Assembly: GCF_016458825.1 (NCBI RefSeq) | Contig: NZ_CP066744.1 | Coordinates: forward strand, 2,105,868 to 2,169,867 | Direction of reading: 5' to 3' | Source of the DNA: Miniphocaeibacter halophilus | GTDB lineage: Bacteria > Bacillota > Clostridia > Tissierellales > Peptoniphilaceae | DNA: 64,000 nt | Shown: positions 3,671-10,554 of the stretch, in pieces | How positions within the stretch are numbered: position 1 is the first letter of the stretch | Layout of the letters: every line of letters begins with the position of its first letter | The notes under the pieces: generated by a model | Seen by the model: only the letters and a program-made list of their open reading frames with translations | What the model was told of the DNA's origin: nothing | Database searches by the model: none | Position numbers and translations under genes: made by a program

Positions 3671-4342
3671 TTAATATATTAATTTAGGAATAAAATTTAA
3701 GTAGTCACTAGAAGTACAAAAATACTTTATTCCATCTACTGTACCCTCAATTATATTACTTAGTCCTGGACCATGCAAATGTCCATATATGCAAATTTCA
3801 ATATTATATTTTTTTAATATTGAATGGAAGTCATTAGGAATGCCTTTTTTATCAAATGGAGGATAATGTAACATTGCAATTTTTTTATTACATGTCTTTG
3901 CTGTTTTTATACTCATTTCAAGTCTTAATAATTCTCTTTTAAAAACATTAAACTCATCCGAATCCTCATTACAATCTTCCCATCCTCTAGTTCCAACAAT
4001 AGAAATTCCATTAAAATCATAGGAGTTGTTTTGTAAAAAAAACATATTATTTAAATTCAAATCATTAATTTTTTTTAATGAACTCCACCAATAGTCATGA
4101 TTTCCCTTAATTAACACTTTTTTTCCAGGAAGATTCTCTATTCTAATTAAATCATTATAGGCTTCGTTAATAGTCATTGCCCAAGAAATATCACCTGCTA
4201 TTAAAACTATATCATTATCTTTAACTACTTCTTTCCAATTTTGAAATATTCTATTTTCATAATTATCCCAATTTTCACCAAATAATTCCATAGTTTTATT
4301 ACCGGTATAATCTAAATGTAAATCTGAAATGCTATATATCAT
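3671..4342 (-). CDS. Calcineurin-like metallophosphoesterase
   Basis: The two-metal phosphoesterase motifs are all present: SDLHLD at residue 5, AGDISWAM, KGNHDYWW, HYPPFD and YGHLHG. This family hydrolyses phosphomono- or diesters in the cytoplasm; the substrate is not predicted. The start was placed at 4342, where ATG follows AGGAG with good spacing and the protein begins directly with MIYSISDLHLD. An upstream in-frame ATG would add 11 residues and overlap the YhaN-like gene. The protein is 223 residues. It follows the YhaO/YhaN pair and may be co-transcribed with it. Confidence 0.85.
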   Translation of the reverse strand: MIYSISDLHLDYTGNKTMELFGENWDNYENRIFQNWKEVVKDNDIVLIAGDISWAMTINEAYNDLIRIENLPGKKVLIKGNHDYWWSSLKKINDLNLNNMFFLQNNSYDFNGISIVGTRGWEDCNEDSDEFNVFKRELLRLEMSIKTAKTCNKKIAMLHYPPFDKKGIPNDFHSILKKYNIEICIYGHLHGPGLSNIIEGTVDGIKYFCTSSDYLNFIPKLIY

Positions 4343-4349
4343 ATTTCTC

Positions 4350-6572
4350 CTATAAATAAATAACCTCTTTTTCAAGAAGATTATTTAATAAATTTTTTTC
4401 TCTTTCTTGACAAGTAAAAATAATAATTTGTCTATTCTCACTAATATTCTTTAAATATTTTAAAGTTTTTAGTAGTCTATAATCATCAAAATTATTAAAA
4501 GCATCGTCAAAAATTATAAATTCCTCCTCATTGAAGATTTCATTTGACAAGGCTATCCTTAAACCTAAATATAATTGATCCATAGTTCCCCTACTTAAAG
4601 AATTCACATCTTTAAATTCACCGATTTTATCATTACTAAAATTTATATTTAAATCTTCATCGATTTTAATTGTCATATTATAATCGGAGATTAAATCAAA
4701 ATAATTTTTTAAAAAGCTTACCATACGAGGTAAATAATTTGTTTTAATTTCATTATGAGCTTTTTCAATTTCTTTAATAGCGATATCCAAAGACTTTAAA
4801 TAGTCGTTTGTTTGTCTAATTTCATCTTCTGTTTGACTTAATTCTTCAATTAATTCAGGTAATCTTTTTACATCATTTTCTAGAAAATTTTTCTTTTCTT
4901 CTAAAGATGCAATTTCTTTAATTAAAAAATCAGAATTGCTTTTTGCATTATTAAGATTAAAATGTTTTATATTTTCAAATCCTTTTTCATATTTTATAAT
5001 ATTGTTTAAGGATCTAGTGTCATAATTGTTATTAATTGTACCTAGCTCTTTAATTTTATTGTTTAAATCCTTTTCTAACTCAATGAAGGTATTTCTATTT
5101 TTTAAATGATTACTTAAATCAAATCCAGTTTTGTTTCTTATTCTAATAGATATTTCTTTTAATTCTTCGTTTTTAAAATCTTCATCATTTAAAAGAATTT
5201 CTATATCCCTATCTTTTTCATCTAATTCTTTTTTAATTTTTTCAAATTTTTCATAAATATATTTATCGGTTTCTAAAACATCTGAATTTAAAATGTTTTT
5301 TTTATTTAGCTTTATATTGAAATTATTATTAATTTCCTCAATAATATTAATTTCTTTATTATTTAAAAAAAGTATTATACCAATAGAAATTCCAAATATT
5401 ATTAAAAAGAAAAATAATATAAAAACAAGTATATTTTGGAAATTAGATATAAATAAGAAAATCAAAGTTAAAAACGAAAAAAGTCCTGAAGCTAGTACAA
5501 GGTAAAATACATTTTTCTTATTTTTCGATAATTTGTTTAATTCGTTTTTATAAAAGGCTTTTTTATCTTCATAAATAATTTTATCTTCAATTTCTTTATA
5601 CTCAGTATAAATATATTTTTTATCCTTTGATAATTCATTGAATTCACGTTGAATATATTTTATTTCTTCTAGAATTTCTTCAGATTTTTCAATATCGTCA
5701 TTTGCCATTAGTTTTAATCTATTATATTCTTCTAATTGTTTTTTTAAATCTGAAATCTCTTTTTCTAAACTTTTTTTCTGTTCTACTACTTTTAGTAATT
5801 TTTGTTGTCTATTATATTCTTCTAATTTATTATATAAATCTATATCATTTCGTAGTTTTTTAAACTCTTTGATTTTTTTATCCAACTCAAATAAATAATC
5901 GTCATATTGATTTTTTTTATTCTTTATACTTATAATTTCTTCATTTAATTCCTTTTCCCTACTTTTTAATATTCCATATGGTTTTTTTAAAGATTTTTCA
6001 GTTCCTATATTATTTTTAAATGTATTTAATTTATTTAGCCCCTTTACAACAGAAAATACTTCATTATTTTCACTAAATGTATCGGCTATTTTTTCTGAAA
6101 TATATTTTGTTGAATTAGAAGAAATTTCTATATTATCTTGACCAACTAATATTGTATTTATAAAAATATCACTACTGCATTTAAAGAAATATTCTCCCGG
6201 AAAACTTAAGTTGCTTTCTTCATATTCTTCAAATTCCCTTGTTATATCTAATCCTGTTTTTTCATCAAAGATTTTATAGATCTTATTAATAAAATCTCTA
6301 TATAATCTATATTTTTTTGACTTATAAATAAAAATAATACTACCTTCATATTTTTCACTAGTCCAAGGTTTATATTTGTAGTAATCATCTGTAAATCTTA
6401 AAGTTTTTAAATGAGGTTTAACAAATCCATAAAACATACCTTCAATAAATTTTACTACAGTTGTTTTCCCGGATTCATTTTTACCTTGTAGAATTGTAAA
6501 ATTATTTTTAAATACAATATTTTTATTTTTAAACTGTCCAAAATTTATTATATTTAATTCAATTATTTTCAT
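4350..6572 (-). CDS. yhaN: YhaN-like SMC/Rad50-type ATPase with a membrane hairpin
   Basis: The N-terminus carries a Rad50/SbcC-type Walker A (LQGKNESGKTTVV, about residues 28-40). The C-terminus carries the signature SLSRGTMDQLYLGLR and the Walker B IIFDDAFNNFD. Between them are long coiled coils (about residues 200-340 and 430-620), interrupted by two adjacent hydrophobic segments at about 355-400 that look like a transmembrane hairpin. YhaN of Bacillus has this same design. The length (740 residues) is shorter than SbcC. The gene overlaps the upstream nuclease gene by 4 bases, the classic arrangement for a Rad50/Mre11-like pair. It probably acts in DNA-end processing at the membrane (inference). 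Confidence 0.88.
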   Translation of the reverse strand: MKIIELNIINFGQFKNKNIVFKNNFTILQGKNESGKTTVVKFIEGMFYGFVKPHLKTLRFTDDYYKYKPWTSEKYEGSIIFIYKSKKYRLYRDFINKIYKIFDEKTGLDITREFEEYEESNLSFPGEYFFKCSSDIFINTILVGQDNIEISSNSTKYISEKIADTFSENNEVFSVVKGLNKLNTFKNNIGTEKSLKKPYGILKSREKELNEEIISIKNKKNQYDDYLFELDKKIKEFKKLRNDIDLYNKLEEYNRQQKLLKVVEQKKSLEKEISDLKKQLEEYNRLKLMANDDIEKSEEILEEIKYIQREFNELSKDKKYIYTEYKEIEDKIIYEDKKAFYKNELNKLSKNKKNVFYLVLASGLFSFLTLIFLFISNFQNILVFILFFFLIIFGISIGIILFLNNKEINIIEEINNNFNIKLNKKNILNSDVLETDKYIYEKFEKIKKELDEKDRDIEILLNDEDFKNEELKEISIRIRNKTGFDLSNHLKNRNTFIELEKDLNNKIKELGTINNNYDTRSLNNIIKYEKGFENIKHFNLNNAKSNSDFLIKEIASLEEKKNFLENDVKRLPELIEELSQTEDEIRQTNDYLKSLDIAIKEIEKAHNEIKTNYLPRMVSFLKNYFDLISDYNMTIKIDEDLNINFSNDKIGEFKDVNSLSRGTMDQLYLGLRIALSNEIFNEEEFIIFDDAFNNFDDYRLLKTLKYLKNISENRQIIIFTCQEREKNLLNNLLEKEVIYL

Positions 6573-7651
6573 TTATCTTCCTTTAAAAGAGCTTTTAAAC
6601 CTAAATTTAAAGCTTCTACATTTATAGAATCATCCATATCATATTCTGACATATTCTTTATAAAAACACCTATTATATTGTTTTCATTTAATTTTTGAAG
6701 CTTATCTAAATCTAGATTATTATCGAGTTTATTTATAATTTCTAAATATTTTACATGATCCTTTAGTTCATTTTCAATAGCATCTATGTCAATATCATAT
6801 TCTTCAGGTAAATTTCCAATTAAATTTATTCTAATATAATTTTTTTTATCAGGATAAATCCAATCATTTAAAAGTAAATCCTTTAATTCATAAAAATTAA
6901 ATTCTCCATTTATTTTATATTCTACTTCACTAAAAACAGATTGAGAAATATCTAAAAATTCAATTAAAAGTTCTTTTTCTTTAAATTCCCCTAAAACAGC
7001 ACCATGTAAACCCTGTTCTTTAAAACTTAAAGGTTCTATTGAACCAGGATATACAATGTTTTCAGCAATTGCACCTGGTTTATGTAAATGTCCTAAAGCA
7101 ATATAATCAAAACCGATGCTCTTTAATTCATTAATATCAACTGGTTGATATTTAAAATTTGTATTAACTATATCTGTATGAATAAGTAAAAAGTTTTTTT
7201 TAGATTTATTTAAAGTTATATTTTCAAAAATATTATCCCTATTTAAAATATTGTCTATGTAGCTAATACCATAAACATCATATTCCTCAAATTCAAATTT
7301 AGTTATTTTATCCTCTCTAAACAAATATACATTACTTGGTAAATCAATTAGTTTCCATTTTGAAGTATTTCTATAAGGATCATGATTTCCAAATATAATA
7401 AATATATTCGTAGATGGTATTTTTCTAAAAAGATCATTTAATCTTTTTAAATCTGATAAAGTCACGTATTCTTCATTATATAAATCACCTGAAAGCAGTA
7501 GTATATCCACTTTTTTATTATTAACTATATCAATGAGATTATCAACACTTCGCCATATGTCATTTCTTCTTTCAATGGCCAGTTCTTTTGGGAAAGAAGA
7601 GTATTCAAAACTAGATGCTATATGAAAATCTCCACTGTGTAAAAATTTCAT
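6569..7651 (-). CDS. yhaO: YhaO-like DNA repair exonuclease (Mre11/SbcD family)
   Basis: This is the nuclease partner of the YhaN-like ATPase. Metal-binding motifs are HSGDFHIAS at residue 4, LLSGDLYNEE, FGNHDPYR, LIHTDI and LGHLHKPG, followed by a C-terminal capping region as in SbcD/YhaO. The start was set at 7651, where a full AGGAGG precedes ATG; an upstream in-frame start would add 8 residues with no such site. It overlaps the start of the YhaN-like gene by 4 bases. The two proteins are expected to form an ATP-driven nuclease complex (family knowledge). It follows the SeqA-like gene with a 7-base gap, so all three form one operon. Confidence 0.88.
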   Translation of the reverse strand: MKFLHSGDFHIASSFEYSSFPKELAIERRNDIWRSVDNLIDIVNNKKVDILLLSGDLYNEEYVTLSDLKRLNDLFRKIPSTNIFIIFGNHDPYRNTSKWKLIDLPSNVYLFREDKITKFEFEEYDVYGISYIDNILNRDNIFENITLNKSKKNFLLIHTDIVNTNFKYQPVDINELKSIGFDYIALGHLHKPGAIAENIVYPGSIEPLSFKEQGLHGAVLGEFKEKELLIEFLDISQSVFSEVEYKINGEFNFYELKDLLLNDWIYPDKKNYIRINLIGNLPEEYDIDIDAIENELKDHVKYLEIINKLDNNLDLDKLQKLNENNIIGVFIKNMSEYDMDDSINVEALNLGLKALLKEDK

Positions 7652-7658
7652 AGTCCTC

Positions 7659-8282
7659 CTATTTATAATAACCATATTTATCTTTTTTATCTTGCTTTAT
7701 ATATATTCTTAAATTATTAATATCTATATTATATAAGTTGAAAATTTTAATTAACATATCCCTAAATCTATTTGAACTAAAATGAGTTTCAGCATATAAA
7801 TTATGTGAGATTTTTATTGGATTAATCATATTTTTAGGTTCTTTATCAAAATATGGTCTTGTTCTACCATTGTACTTAGTTTTATTTATAAGTGAATATA
7901 GTTTACTTTGATCAATTTTAAATAAATAAAATAAAATTTGCTCATATAATTCTTTAAAAGATGAGACCTCAATATTTTTTCCCCTATAAATCGAATAGGA
8001 TTTTGGTTTGGTATAGGAAAAATCATGAAATAAATTTACAGATTTAGAAAATACCTTTTCATTAGATAATATTTCCAATGAAAGTTGTATTCCCTCAATG
8101 GGTATTAACGATTTAATATTAATAATACTATCATAAAACTCTTTAATTTCCTTATGATTTTTTAAGTCTAAATCATAAGTTTGAGCCATGTTAAAACTCT
8201 TTTCTAATTTTTCTAAAGAGTCATAGATTGTAAGAATTAACTGAGGATTTTCATCCTTTAATATTTCAAAAAACCTGTCCAT
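7659..8282 (-). CDS. Hypothetical protein with SeqA-like C-terminal motif
   Basis: I do not know a named family for this 207-residue protein. Residues about 110-195 resemble the C-terminal domain of E. coli SeqA, which binds hemimethylated GATC. Both have a helix with LF-ID spacing, then a GRTR-x-YF motif (here GRTRPYF at 139-145, in SeqA GRTRVYF), then a conserved Y...T...M-[LI] pattern. The two SeqA contact Asn residues align with His167 and Ser169 here, so base recognition may differ. The N-terminal 105 residues are a separate, mostly helical part. It starts the operon with the YhaO/YhaN genes, which suggests a DNA role. The ribosome site is weak (GGTGAT). Confidence 0.55.
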   Translation of the reverse strand: MDRFFEILKDENPQLILTIYDSLEKLEKSFNMAQTYDLDLKNHKEIKEFYDSIINIKSLIPIEGIQLSLEILSNEKVFSKSVNLFHDFSYTKPKSYSIYRGKNIEVSSFKELYEQILFYLFKIDQSKLYSLINKTKYNGRTRPYFDKEPKNMINPIKISHNLYAETHFSSNRFRDMLIKIFNLYNIDINNLRIYIKQDKKDKYGYYK

Positions 8283-8317: not shown

Positions 8318-8336
8318 CCTAAACTAATTGTTTAGG
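8318..8336 (-). terminator. Weak terminator after the mobA-mobB gene
   Basis: A perfect 7-bp stem (CCTAAAC / GTTTAGG, 5-base loop) overlaps the end of the mobAB gene. On the minus strand it is followed by a T-rich tract (AATTTTATTT). This is a plausible but weak intrinsic terminator. Confidence 0.4.
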
Positions 8337-9371
8337 ACTAATATAGTGTTCAATTATATAATTTGCAAAGTTATCTATATCCGACAATTTAAATACATTT
8401 TCATATTTATTTGAAAAATCTTCAATATCGGTAACAATTCCCTTTAAAGGTTTTCTTGTAATTATTTCTGTGGAGTTTTTAAAGCGAACTATTTCATATT
8501 TATCAAAGTCACTATCTTTTAAACCCTCAATAACAATTAAATCAAACTCCTTTAGTCTGTTAAGTAAAAATTCAATATTTATTTTCTTGTTTTCAATCAT
8601 CATATATTTTCTATTTGAAAAAATAGCCACACTATCTGCACCTGCATTAAAAAATTTACCGGTATCGGTTTTATTATCTATATTAAAATCGTGGCCATCA
8701 TGTTTAATAGCACATACTTTATATCCTTTTTCTTTTAGTATATAGATTAGTTTTTCAATGAAAGTAGTTTTTCCAGAGTTTTTTCTACCACAAATAGAAA
8801 TTATATTGTTATTAATTAGTTTATAGTATTCTTCTTTAGTATTAACATTATACAATATATTATCATTAAATATACTATATTTTAAATCTATTATTTTACT
8901 AAAAGGTTCTTTTAGAAGTTCTTTTAATTTATAATTTTCATCATGAATATATTTTTCTAAAGTTGGAACCATTTTTTTTGAATAAATTGCTCCAATAGGA
9001 TGTATATTATTATTTGATTTAACAGAAAAAATATAGTAGTCGCTAGAAATATAGGATTTAAGATAATTAACAAAATCCAAGTTTATATTTTGCATATCTA
9101 CTCCGGTTATAAAATTATATTCATATTTACTTGCCTTCAATATTTCTAAAATCCCACTAATTGGACCTATGTTTTTATATAAATCTTCAGTATATCTTAC
9201 TTTATCTATTTTTTTAAAATCTTTATCATTAGAAGAAACAATAATATCATAACCTTTAAATAAATGAATTAAATTTTCTAAAAAAGTATTTCCTTTATAA
9301 ATTAACTCTGATTTGTTTTCTCCCATTCGAGAACTTTTCCCACCGGCTAAAATTCCTATTCCAATATTCAT
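8319..9371 (-). CDS. MobA-MobB fusion, molybdenum cofactor guanylylation
   Basis: Two domains are joined in one 350-residue protein. Residues 1 to about 185 are MobA, with the nucleotidyltransferase signature GILAGGKSSRMGENKSEL and the GVDMQ metal site, which attaches GMP to molybdopterin. From about 190 on it is MobB, a P-loop GTP-binding protein with ICGRKNSGKTTFIEKL, AIKHDGHDF and VIEGLKDS. Fusions of these two are known in anaerobes. The gene follows moeA with only one base between stop and start and no clear ribosome site, so it depends on coupling to moeA. It implies that the cell makes at least one molybdo- or tungstoenzyme. Confidence 0.92.
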   Translation of the reverse strand: MNIGIGILAGGKSSRMGENKSELIYKGNTFLENLIHLFKGYDIIVSSNDKDFKKIDKVRYTEDLYKNIGPISGILEILKASKYEYNFITGVDMQNINLDFVNYLKSYISSDYYIFSVKSNNNIHPIGAIYSKKMVPTLEKYIHDENYKLKELLKEPFSKIIDLKYSIFNDNILYNVNTKEEYYKLINNNIISICGRKNSGKTTFIEKLIYILKEKGYKVCAIKHDGHDFNIDNKTDTGKFFNAGADSVAIFSNRKYMMIENKKINIEFLLNRLKEFDLIVIEGLKDSDFDKYEIVRFKNSTEIITRKPLKGIVTDIEDFSNKYENVFKLSDIDNFANYIIEHYISPKQLV

Positions 9372-9372
9372 A

Positions 9373-10554
9373 TTATGGTAAGTAAATAACTTTTACTTTA
9401 TCTCCTTCTTTAATTTCTGTATCTGGCTTTTGTACTATTAAGCAATTACAATTTAATAAATTGGAAATTACTGATGATGAATGGATATCTTCTAATTCAA
9501 CATATTCATTATAGTACCTTGCTCTTACATACCTTTGTAATTTACTAGGTTTTAAATAACCCTTTTTTACAATTTTTTCATGTTCAATATTATTAAACTC
9601 CTCAGAATTATAATATTTAGATGCAATTGGCCAAAATAGTACTTGAAAATTGGCTAAGGCTGCAAAGGGATTTCCTGAAAGACTTATTATAATAGAATCA
9701 TTTATTAAAGCAGCTGAAACAGGAGTGCCTGGTTTCATAGCAACTTTTTTAAACAAAATATTATTTGAGATTTTATTATATAATTCTGGAATTAAATCAT
9801 ATTTTCCTACTGATACTCCTCCGGTTGTTATTATTATATCCGATTCTTGAGAGGCTTTCTCAACACTTTCTGAAATATCAAAAAGATTGTCTTTTACAAT
9901 TTTAATATTATTAACTTTAATATTAAATTTTTTTAAATATGAATTTATTGTAAATAAAGTACTACAGTATATTTTACCATTTTCAAGTTTTTCTCCAGGA
10001 TATAATAATTCACTACCTGTAGAAATTAAAGAAACCGAAAGTGGCTTTACAACCTTTATCATATTTAGCCCTAAACTAGCAAAAACACCTAAATGAATTG
10101 TACTAATAATTGTTCCGGCCTTTAATATAAGGTCTCCCTTCTTTATATCTTCACCAATATGGCAATAATTCGAGTATTCTTTTTCTTTTTTATTAATACT
10201 TACATATTCTACTCCATAATCTGTATCTTCTTGTTTAACAACGCAATTATAGCCTTTTGGAATAAAACTCCCAGTCATTACTCTAATAGCTGTATTTGGT
10301 TTATACTCTATATCTTTAAATTGACCGGCATATATTTCATCTATTACTTTAAATTTTCTTGTATTCTCCAAATCCTTATAATTTACAGCATAACCATCCA
10401 TAGCAGATTTTGGAAATTCCGGAACATTTATTTCTGAATATAAATCTTTAGCTAAAACATATCCTTCAGAATTTAAGAGGCTAACATCTAAAAATTCTGT
10501 TTGTGTTTTTATATTATCTTTTAATATTTTTATTGCTTCTATTACATTTATCAT
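9373..10554 (-). CDS. moeA: Molybdopterin molybdotransferase (MoeA)
   Basis: MoeA inserts molybdate into adenylated molybdopterin. Motifs are PEFPKSAMDGYAV near residue 45, RVMTGSFIPKG, the MoaB/Mog-like TTGGVSVGKYD (residues about 240-250), KKVAMKPGTPVSAAL and SLSGNPFAAL. At 393 residues it has the usual length, with the C-terminal domain IV present. It is the first gene of a two-gene operon with the mobA-mobB fusion, starting after an AGGATG ribosome site. Other cofactor genes (moaA, moaC, mogA, moaE) are not in this window. Confidence 0.95.
   Translation of the reverse strand: MINVIEAIKILKDNIKTQTEFLDVSLLNSEGYVLAKDLYSEINVPEFPKSAMDGYAVNYKDLENTRKFKVIDEIYAGQFKDIEYKPNTAIRVMTGSFIPKGYNCVVKQEDTDYGVEYVSINKKEKEYSNYCHIGEDIKKGDLILKAGTIISTIHLGVFASLGLNMIKVVKPLSVSLISTGSELLYPGEKLENGKIYCSTLFTINSYLKKFNIKVNNIKIVKDNLFDISESVEKASQESDIIITTGGVSVGKYDLIPELYNKISNNILFKKVAMKPGTPVSAALINDSIIISLSGNPFAALANFQVLFWPIASKYYNSEEFNNIEHEKIVKKGYLKPSKLQRYVRARYYNEYVELEDIHSSSVISNLLNCNCLIVQKPDTEIKEGDKVKVIYLP

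Follow-up and report, generated by a model that had tools for sequence, protein, structure and literature searches.

What does a protein that resembles SeqA do in a member of the Clostridia, directly in front of the genes of an Mre11/Rad50-like nuclease? The question is raised by a stretch of 64,000 nucleotides from Miniphocaeibacter halophilus (contig NZ_CP066744.1, positions 2,105,868 to 2,169,867; hereafter the window), in which an open reading frame, here called X, precedes the genes of a YhaO/YhaN pair, which we take to be the same as SbcE/SbcF. SeqA has been studied as a gammaproteobacterial replication protein and is, to our knowledge, otherwise gammaproteobacterial. The answer we favour, with roughly even confidence, is that X assists the YhaO-YhaN nuclease as a DNA-binding accessory of two domains, with an altered specificity derived from that of SeqA. 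Computed directly are the predicted fold, the co-orientation and tight spacing of X and yhaO, purifying selection on X and the loss of the residues by which SeqA contacts GATC. The larger finding is a domain family in restriction loci, and it points to little-recognised DNA-reading modules.

The frame of X (7659..8282, minus strand) is intact and encodes 207 residues; the initial annotation had placed it at these positions and needs correcting only as to the strand, which is minus. The protein is predicted to consist of a helical N-terminal domain and a C-terminal domain of SeqA fold, and its last 128 residues are basic (isoelectric point 9.7). Residues 1-75 (8058..8282, minus) contain four helices in the AlphaFold model, over residues 2-74, and match no Pfam family at E<=1; the N-terminal domain of SeqA has no Pfam match in this part either, which agrees with the earlier description of the N-terminus as unrelated to SeqA. 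Single-sequence searches with X returned no Pfam family at E<=1, nothing from PADLOC or PHROGs at E<=0.1, one sub-threshold match from NCBIfam (E 0.039) and, by phmmer against the PDB sequences, no match at E<=10. Between the stop codon of X and an internal ATG of yhaO at 7651 lie 7 nucleotides, and the short distance to the nuclease pair noted earlier holds when it is counted from this ATG; the longest yhaO frame, which starts at 7675, shares 17 nucleotides with X. In comparison with the nearest ortholog, the nonsynonymous and synonymous rates (dN/dS, NG86) of X are 0.05/0.62 (about 0.08), comparable to those of yhaO (0.076/0.75) and yhaN (0.118/1.02), so X is under purifying selection.

The C-terminal 100 residues or so of X are predicted to adopt the fold of the SeqA DNA-binding domain. 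The AlphaFold model was built from 11 sequences with no templates and has a predicted local distance difference test score (pLDDT) of 83.8. When the model was superposed on known structures, a check that the initial annotation had proposed, VIA-align matched residues 97-194 of X (7701..7994, minus) with residues 71-180 of SeqA; the four SeqA entries reached Z 10.1, 9.8, 9.3 and 8.8 with root-mean-square deviations (rmsd) of 2.4-2.6 over 90-96 residues, the highest being 1lrr (rmsd 2.4, 96 residues), and the best match after SeqA (Z 7.2) covered the N-terminal helices only. Foldseek likewise placed five SeqA chains at ranks 1-5 (E 0.027-0.24, probability 0.98-1.00). A model of a relative from contig L141 (pLDDT 77.0, predicted template modelling score 0.51) has SeqA 1lrr as its best VIA-align match, with Z 10.9 and rmsd 2.1 over 96 residues.

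Profile comparison leads to the same fold. An alignment of seven X orthologs scored 38.4 (probability 73%) against six SeqA sequences in hhalign, and 13 domains with GmrSD-type members included scored 60.0 (96.3%); five GmrSD-fused rows taken alone gave 47.3 and the stand-alone rows alone 44.3. Column-shuffled controls (200 per alignment, three alignments, 600 in all) did not exceed 22.5, and reversed ones gave 10-13. The resemblance extends further than the short GRTR motif, since the score was still 37.8 after the genus that bears GRTR had been dropped. When the 13-domain profile was run against 177,635 PDB sequences, five of the eight matches were SeqA, all of them weak (E 0.1-0.2). The proposal of a SeqA-like C-terminal domain is thus supported by controlled profile alignment, PDB search and model comparison alike.

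The Pfam SeqA model itself (PF03925, gathering cut-off 25.5 bits) has no match to X at E<=1. Among the relatives scanned, the highest score belongs to a protein in L096, whose best Pfam family is SeqA (E 0.0043, 17.6 bits, under the cut-off), and two of the 11 members of alignment set A7 match the model at E<=1, the better at 0.0064. Over 100 genomes of the family 16 match at E<=1, none above the cut-off; of the 18 rows concerned five lie on the domain, namely X of genome G089 and the GmrSD regions of G120, G110, G053 and G112, and the remaining 13 fall elsewhere and were taken as chance. A search for SeqA in the phage database gave no match at 0.01.

It is of interest to compare the residues with which X would touch DNA to those of SeqA. 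According to the accessible part of PMC6225831, SeqA contacts GATC through Arg116, Thr117, Arg118, Asn150 and Asn152. We read these positions on one alignment of 43 domains (seven X, 17 stand-alone, 13 GmrSD and six SeqA). In X, residues 138-145 (NGRTRPYF; 7848..7871, minus) correspond to the loop of SeqA residues 114-121, and residues 162-172 (7767..7799, minus) to the loop 145-155. The GRTRPYF motif described earlier is indeed present at residues 139-145 of the window's X, where Arg, Thr and Arg are retained, and the reported exchange of the two asparagines for His and Ser is also correct (His167 and Ser169 stand for Asn150 and Asn152). As a family feature, however, the motif does not stand: GRTR is retained in only two of the seven orthologs, the others having GTKK, GLRR, GWKR, GRKK and GIKK, so that the equivalents of Arg116-Thr117-Arg118 read RTR, RTR, TKK, LRR, WKR, RKK and IKK. 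Invariant in all seven are N138, G139, Y144 and F145, and the Arg118 position is always basic. The Asn150 equivalent is His in four and Lys in three, never Asn, and that of Asn152 is retained in one. Asn150 is found in 12 of the 17 stand-alone domains, 12 of the 13 GmrSD domains and all six SeqA; for Asn152 the corresponding counts are 2, 4 and 6.

As regards methylation, no match to the D12/Dam-class methylases (PF02086) was found in the window's genome, where another class could methylate GATC. Three of the seven genomes with X have one or more such matches and four, the window's included, have none, one of the other three in this group being 81% complete. With GRTR in two of seven orthologs, His or Lys at the Asn150 position throughout and a host in which a Dam-class methylase was looked for and not detected, it is unlikely that X reads hemimethylated GATC, and the sensing role once suggested for it is not supported. 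The window's genome has other adenine-methylase families, so that another N6-methyladenine (m6A) modification is conceivable as the target. A 336-residue stand-alone relative (L163:6231-7241, plus strand), located beside an Eco57I-type methylase, keeps all five GATC contacts, i.e. GRTR and both asparagines; among the rows aligned it is the strongest candidate for reading m6A apart from SeqA itself.

Where is X found? Of 130 genomes of the family that were searched, 13 contain a match to X (E<=0.001). Seven of these are full-length X from three genera, including Miniphocaeibacter (M. massiliensis), Lagierella/Mediannikoviicoccus and Gallicola (a metagenome-assembled genome); the other six are weak and lie inside open frames of 798-856 residues. 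Two peptide patterns scanned over the genome contigs gave six loci, all among the X relatives already found. In all seven genomes full-length X directly precedes yhaO in the same orientation, with mobAB on its other side, and the linkage is still present in the more distant genera, whose X and YhaO have 39-50% identity to those of the window. The co-occurrence check proposed at the outset therefore gives X beside yhaO wherever full-length X is found; the claimed link with yhaO/yhaN stands in this sense, but it is confined to one clade and mobAB is linked equally well.

The slot in front of yhaO is informative in itself. yhaO was found in 119 of the 130 genomes (1e-10), and the upstream gene was read in 110 of these loci, the nine weakest being left out; one locus had no upstream gene in view. 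A gene resembling PC4, a single-strand DNA-binding family, lies directly upstream in two of the 110 loci and one gene further up in two. In a YhaO tree of 46 of the 110, the seven X-bearing rows group together (95/78) as sister to two PC4-bearing rows (joint clade 100/97). The PC4-like gene of the sister genus occupies the slot of X, 8 nucleotides before yhaO (L048:2574-2825, minus; L050:1241-1492, plus). This exchange of DNA-binding genes, X or PC4, in a single position supports a link with the nuclease better than any other observation. A PC4-like gene also adjoins a SeqA-like gene in L148 (4738-4971; hsdR is present and PC4 is confirmed by Pfam) and in L140 (295-519).

X belongs to a wider family, as relatives were found in 30 of 249 genomes of the order (E<=0.01) and 23 of 391 in a sample of the class (1e-6). 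In some members the domain makes up the C-terminal or central portion of a GmrSD-type enzyme; others stand alone and share the two-domain architecture of X. In the domain tree X branches as a group of its own (92/92). Among three GmrSD-type proteins scanned with Pfam, L101 and L107 have GmrSD_N and GmrSD_C above the cut-offs, and L010, which is truncated in the stretch read and also carries DUF4268, has GmrSD_C and, just below its cut-off, GmrSD_N; the other members were assigned to this type by sequence likeness, rows inside long frames being counted as such. No Pfam model covers the stretch after GmrSD_C in the three proteins scanned. The SeqA-like region follows GmrSD_C in L010 (before DUF4268), L029-L034, L101 and L104-L107.

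The stand-alone set outside X comprises 26 loci, eight from the order search, 13 from the class search and five viral contigs, after G146, G119, G470, G500 and the second row of G450 had been dropped as fragments, GmrSD pieces or repeats. By our own reading, and as a raw count, a type I restriction subunit lies within about three genes in 11 of the 26: G168, G130, G390, G515, G462, G296 (one of two), G426, G287 and contigs L141, L142 and L148, with near-identical copies among G168/G130/G390 and between G515 and G462. Pfam confirmed the subunit in the six loci scanned (L103, L156, L158, L160, L165 and L148). One more of the 26, L163, adjoins the Eco57I-type methylase mentioned above, and in the remaining 14 no type I or methylase neighbour was recognised, some of these stretches being short. 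The occurrence of the domain in type IV (GmrSD) and type I restriction loci goes beyond what the initial annotation contained. A viral-contig protein of 549 residues (L143:3827-5476) is X-like over its first 235 residues or so and then has a long C-terminal extension. The stand-alone relative in L140 had no match in plasmid and phage databases at 1e-5, and of the single-protein viral scans two gave no matches and one returned only the contig of the query.

We infer that X binds DNA, that it is a partner of YhaO-YhaN and that it recognises a particular DNA form; that the same domain is fused to GmrSD and found near hsdR/hsdM, i.e. with DNA-cutting enzymes, speaks for this reading, and the nuclease partnership is plausible. 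The diverged SeqA domain would probably grip duplex DNA through the loops 138-145 and 162-172, and the helical N-terminal domain would probably serve for oligomerisation or for docking on the nuclease. In this way X may bring YhaO-YhaN, whose ATPase looks membrane-tethered, to a DNA form other than hemimethylated GATC, or hold it there. More tentatively, and short of an even chance, we speculate that Clostridia employ the SeqA fold as a general module for reading DNA, in GmrSD, type I and YhaO-YhaN systems; members with Asn150 would read the m6A of a neighbouring methylase, and the X clade, with His or Lys, would steer YhaO-YhaN to a different form of DNA.

A number of observations weigh against the accessory reading. 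Key DNA-contact residues of SeqA are lost in the X orthologs. For the L141 model Foldseek puts SeqA only eighth (E 1.1), and SeqA stands out less in its VIA-align list because the helical N-terminus draws unrelated matches with Z up to 10.0; a structure search of BFVD with the X model gave nothing SeqA-like among the 50 matches listed. X is absent from 103 of the 110 yhaO loci, where the gene before yhaO is, by sight, mostly metabolic. The partner claim is further weakened because mobAB flanks X on the other side just as strictly (seven of seven), and inherited gene order could explain a link confined to three genera of one family and one clade. On another reading X would be a member of the molybdenum-cofactor operon moeA-mobAB, perhaps as its DNA-binding regulator, and would stand before yhaO by accident. 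The gap between mobAB and X (-4 to +142 nucleotides) fits such an operon, but the sister genomes G054 and G055 carry moeA-mobAB elsewhere without X, with PC4 in the yhaO slot, and the neighbours of distant relatives include, by sight, restriction genes and no molybdenum-cofactor genes; we therefore find this explanation unlikely.

A regulatory role could also take the form of autoregulation, with X acting on the transcription of yhaON or mobAB, as the predicted DNA-binding fold and the position in a tight operon would allow. The GmrSD-fused relatives are nuclease parts, however, 11 of the 26 stand-alone loci lie near type I genes, and SeqA-type domains are not known as repressors of the classical operator-binding kind, all of which makes this role very unlikely. 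It is nearly as improbable that X is a true analogue of SeqA, one that reads and sequesters hemimethylated or methylated adenine sites independently of the nuclease: the predicted fold, GRTR in the window and one relative and the adenine-methylase families of the host are in its favour, but the asparagine contacts are replaced or mostly lost, the window's genome and three more of the seven yielded no D12/Dam-class methylase, and the SeqA N-terminal domain is not detected in X. That the GRTR resemblance is accidental and X unrelated to SeqA seems scarcely credible. The variation of GRTR among orthologs and the silence of the Pfam model on X would agree with it, yet profile, PDB search and predicted structure are concordant where the shuffled and reversed controls fail, and a chance motif was rejected on these hhalign controls.

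When the accessory reading is set against known systems, SeqA of E. coli and its relatives (PDB 1lrr, 1iu3, 3fmt, 3sk7) shares with X the G-x-x-x-x-Y-F loop, a basic character and a DNA-binding domain, predicted in X, behind a separate N-terminal domain. The two differ in the N-terminus, between which no relation was detected, in Asn150/Asn152, lost in the window's X, in GRTR, not conserved among the X orthologs, in the Dam-class methylase, not found in the X host, and in the operon, which is seqA-pgm for SeqA and that of a nuclease for X. In the GmrSD (DUF262-DUF1524) type IV enzymes the region after GmrSD_C aligns with roughly residues 82-200 of X, but there it shares a single polypeptide with the nuclease, and these rows keep the Asn150 equivalent (12 of 13) and not the full NGxxxxYF loop. 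The stand-alone Clostridia proteins (mostly 185-363 residues), for which no family name was found, have, like X, a helical N-terminus and a SeqA-like C-terminus; their recognised nuclease neighbours are hsdR/hsdM or an HNH gene, in contrast to yhaON. Among the YhaO/YhaN pairs of Firmicutes those of the window look ordinary by their motifs, and what sets them apart is the SeqA-like partner gene, which 103 of 110 loci lack.

If the reading is true, restriction of types I and IV and an Mre11/Rad50-like pair are all connected with a SeqA fold in Clostridia, and protein regions with no assigned role, including the stretch after GmrSD_C, gain a candidate recognition module. In the accessible part of Machnicka et al. 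2015 (PMC4619093), DUF4268, DUF4357 and DNA_binding_1 are given as extra domains of GmrSD, and the word SeqA is absent from the main text. The available portion of PMC6452273, which names SbcEF and not YhaO, describes the role of SbcEF as poorly characterised; on the equation of names assumed above, X would be a testable partner for the pair. Neither the matches listed from the open-access literature nor the accessible parts of PMC4619093, PMC12707154, PMC6225831 and PMC6452273 describe a SeqA-like domain in GmrSD, in type I loci or beside YhaON.

The remaining genes of the locus lie on the minus strand in the order moeA-like, mobA-mobB fusion, X, yhaO, yhaN and a second metallophosphoesterase. 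The yhaO-like gene (6569..7675, likely start 7651) encodes an Mre11/SbcD-type nuclease with the phosphoesterase motifs GDFH, SGDL, GNHD, HTD and GHLH at residues 15, 62, 96, 166 and 195 (PF00149, 50.3 bits). The yhaN-like gene (4350..6572) encodes a Rad50/SMC-type ATPase that matches Pfam AAA_27 (PF13514, 37.2 bits) and AAA_23 and has the Walker A motif GKNESGKT at residue 30. Two long hydrophobic stretches lie within its residues 353-408, likewise in four relatives checked, and no CxxC zinc hook was found in any of the five; the hydrophobic stretches and the missing hook suggest a membrane-tethered Rad50-like ATPase. The second metallophosphoesterase gene (3671..4375) follows yhaN in six of the seven X loci, those whose stretch extends far enough. 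Upstream of X lies the mobA-mobB fusion gene (8319..9371), and upstream of this a gene named moeA-like by resemblance (9373..10554). The fusion of MobA and MobB in one open reading frame is common to the X-bearing relatives and the sister genus.
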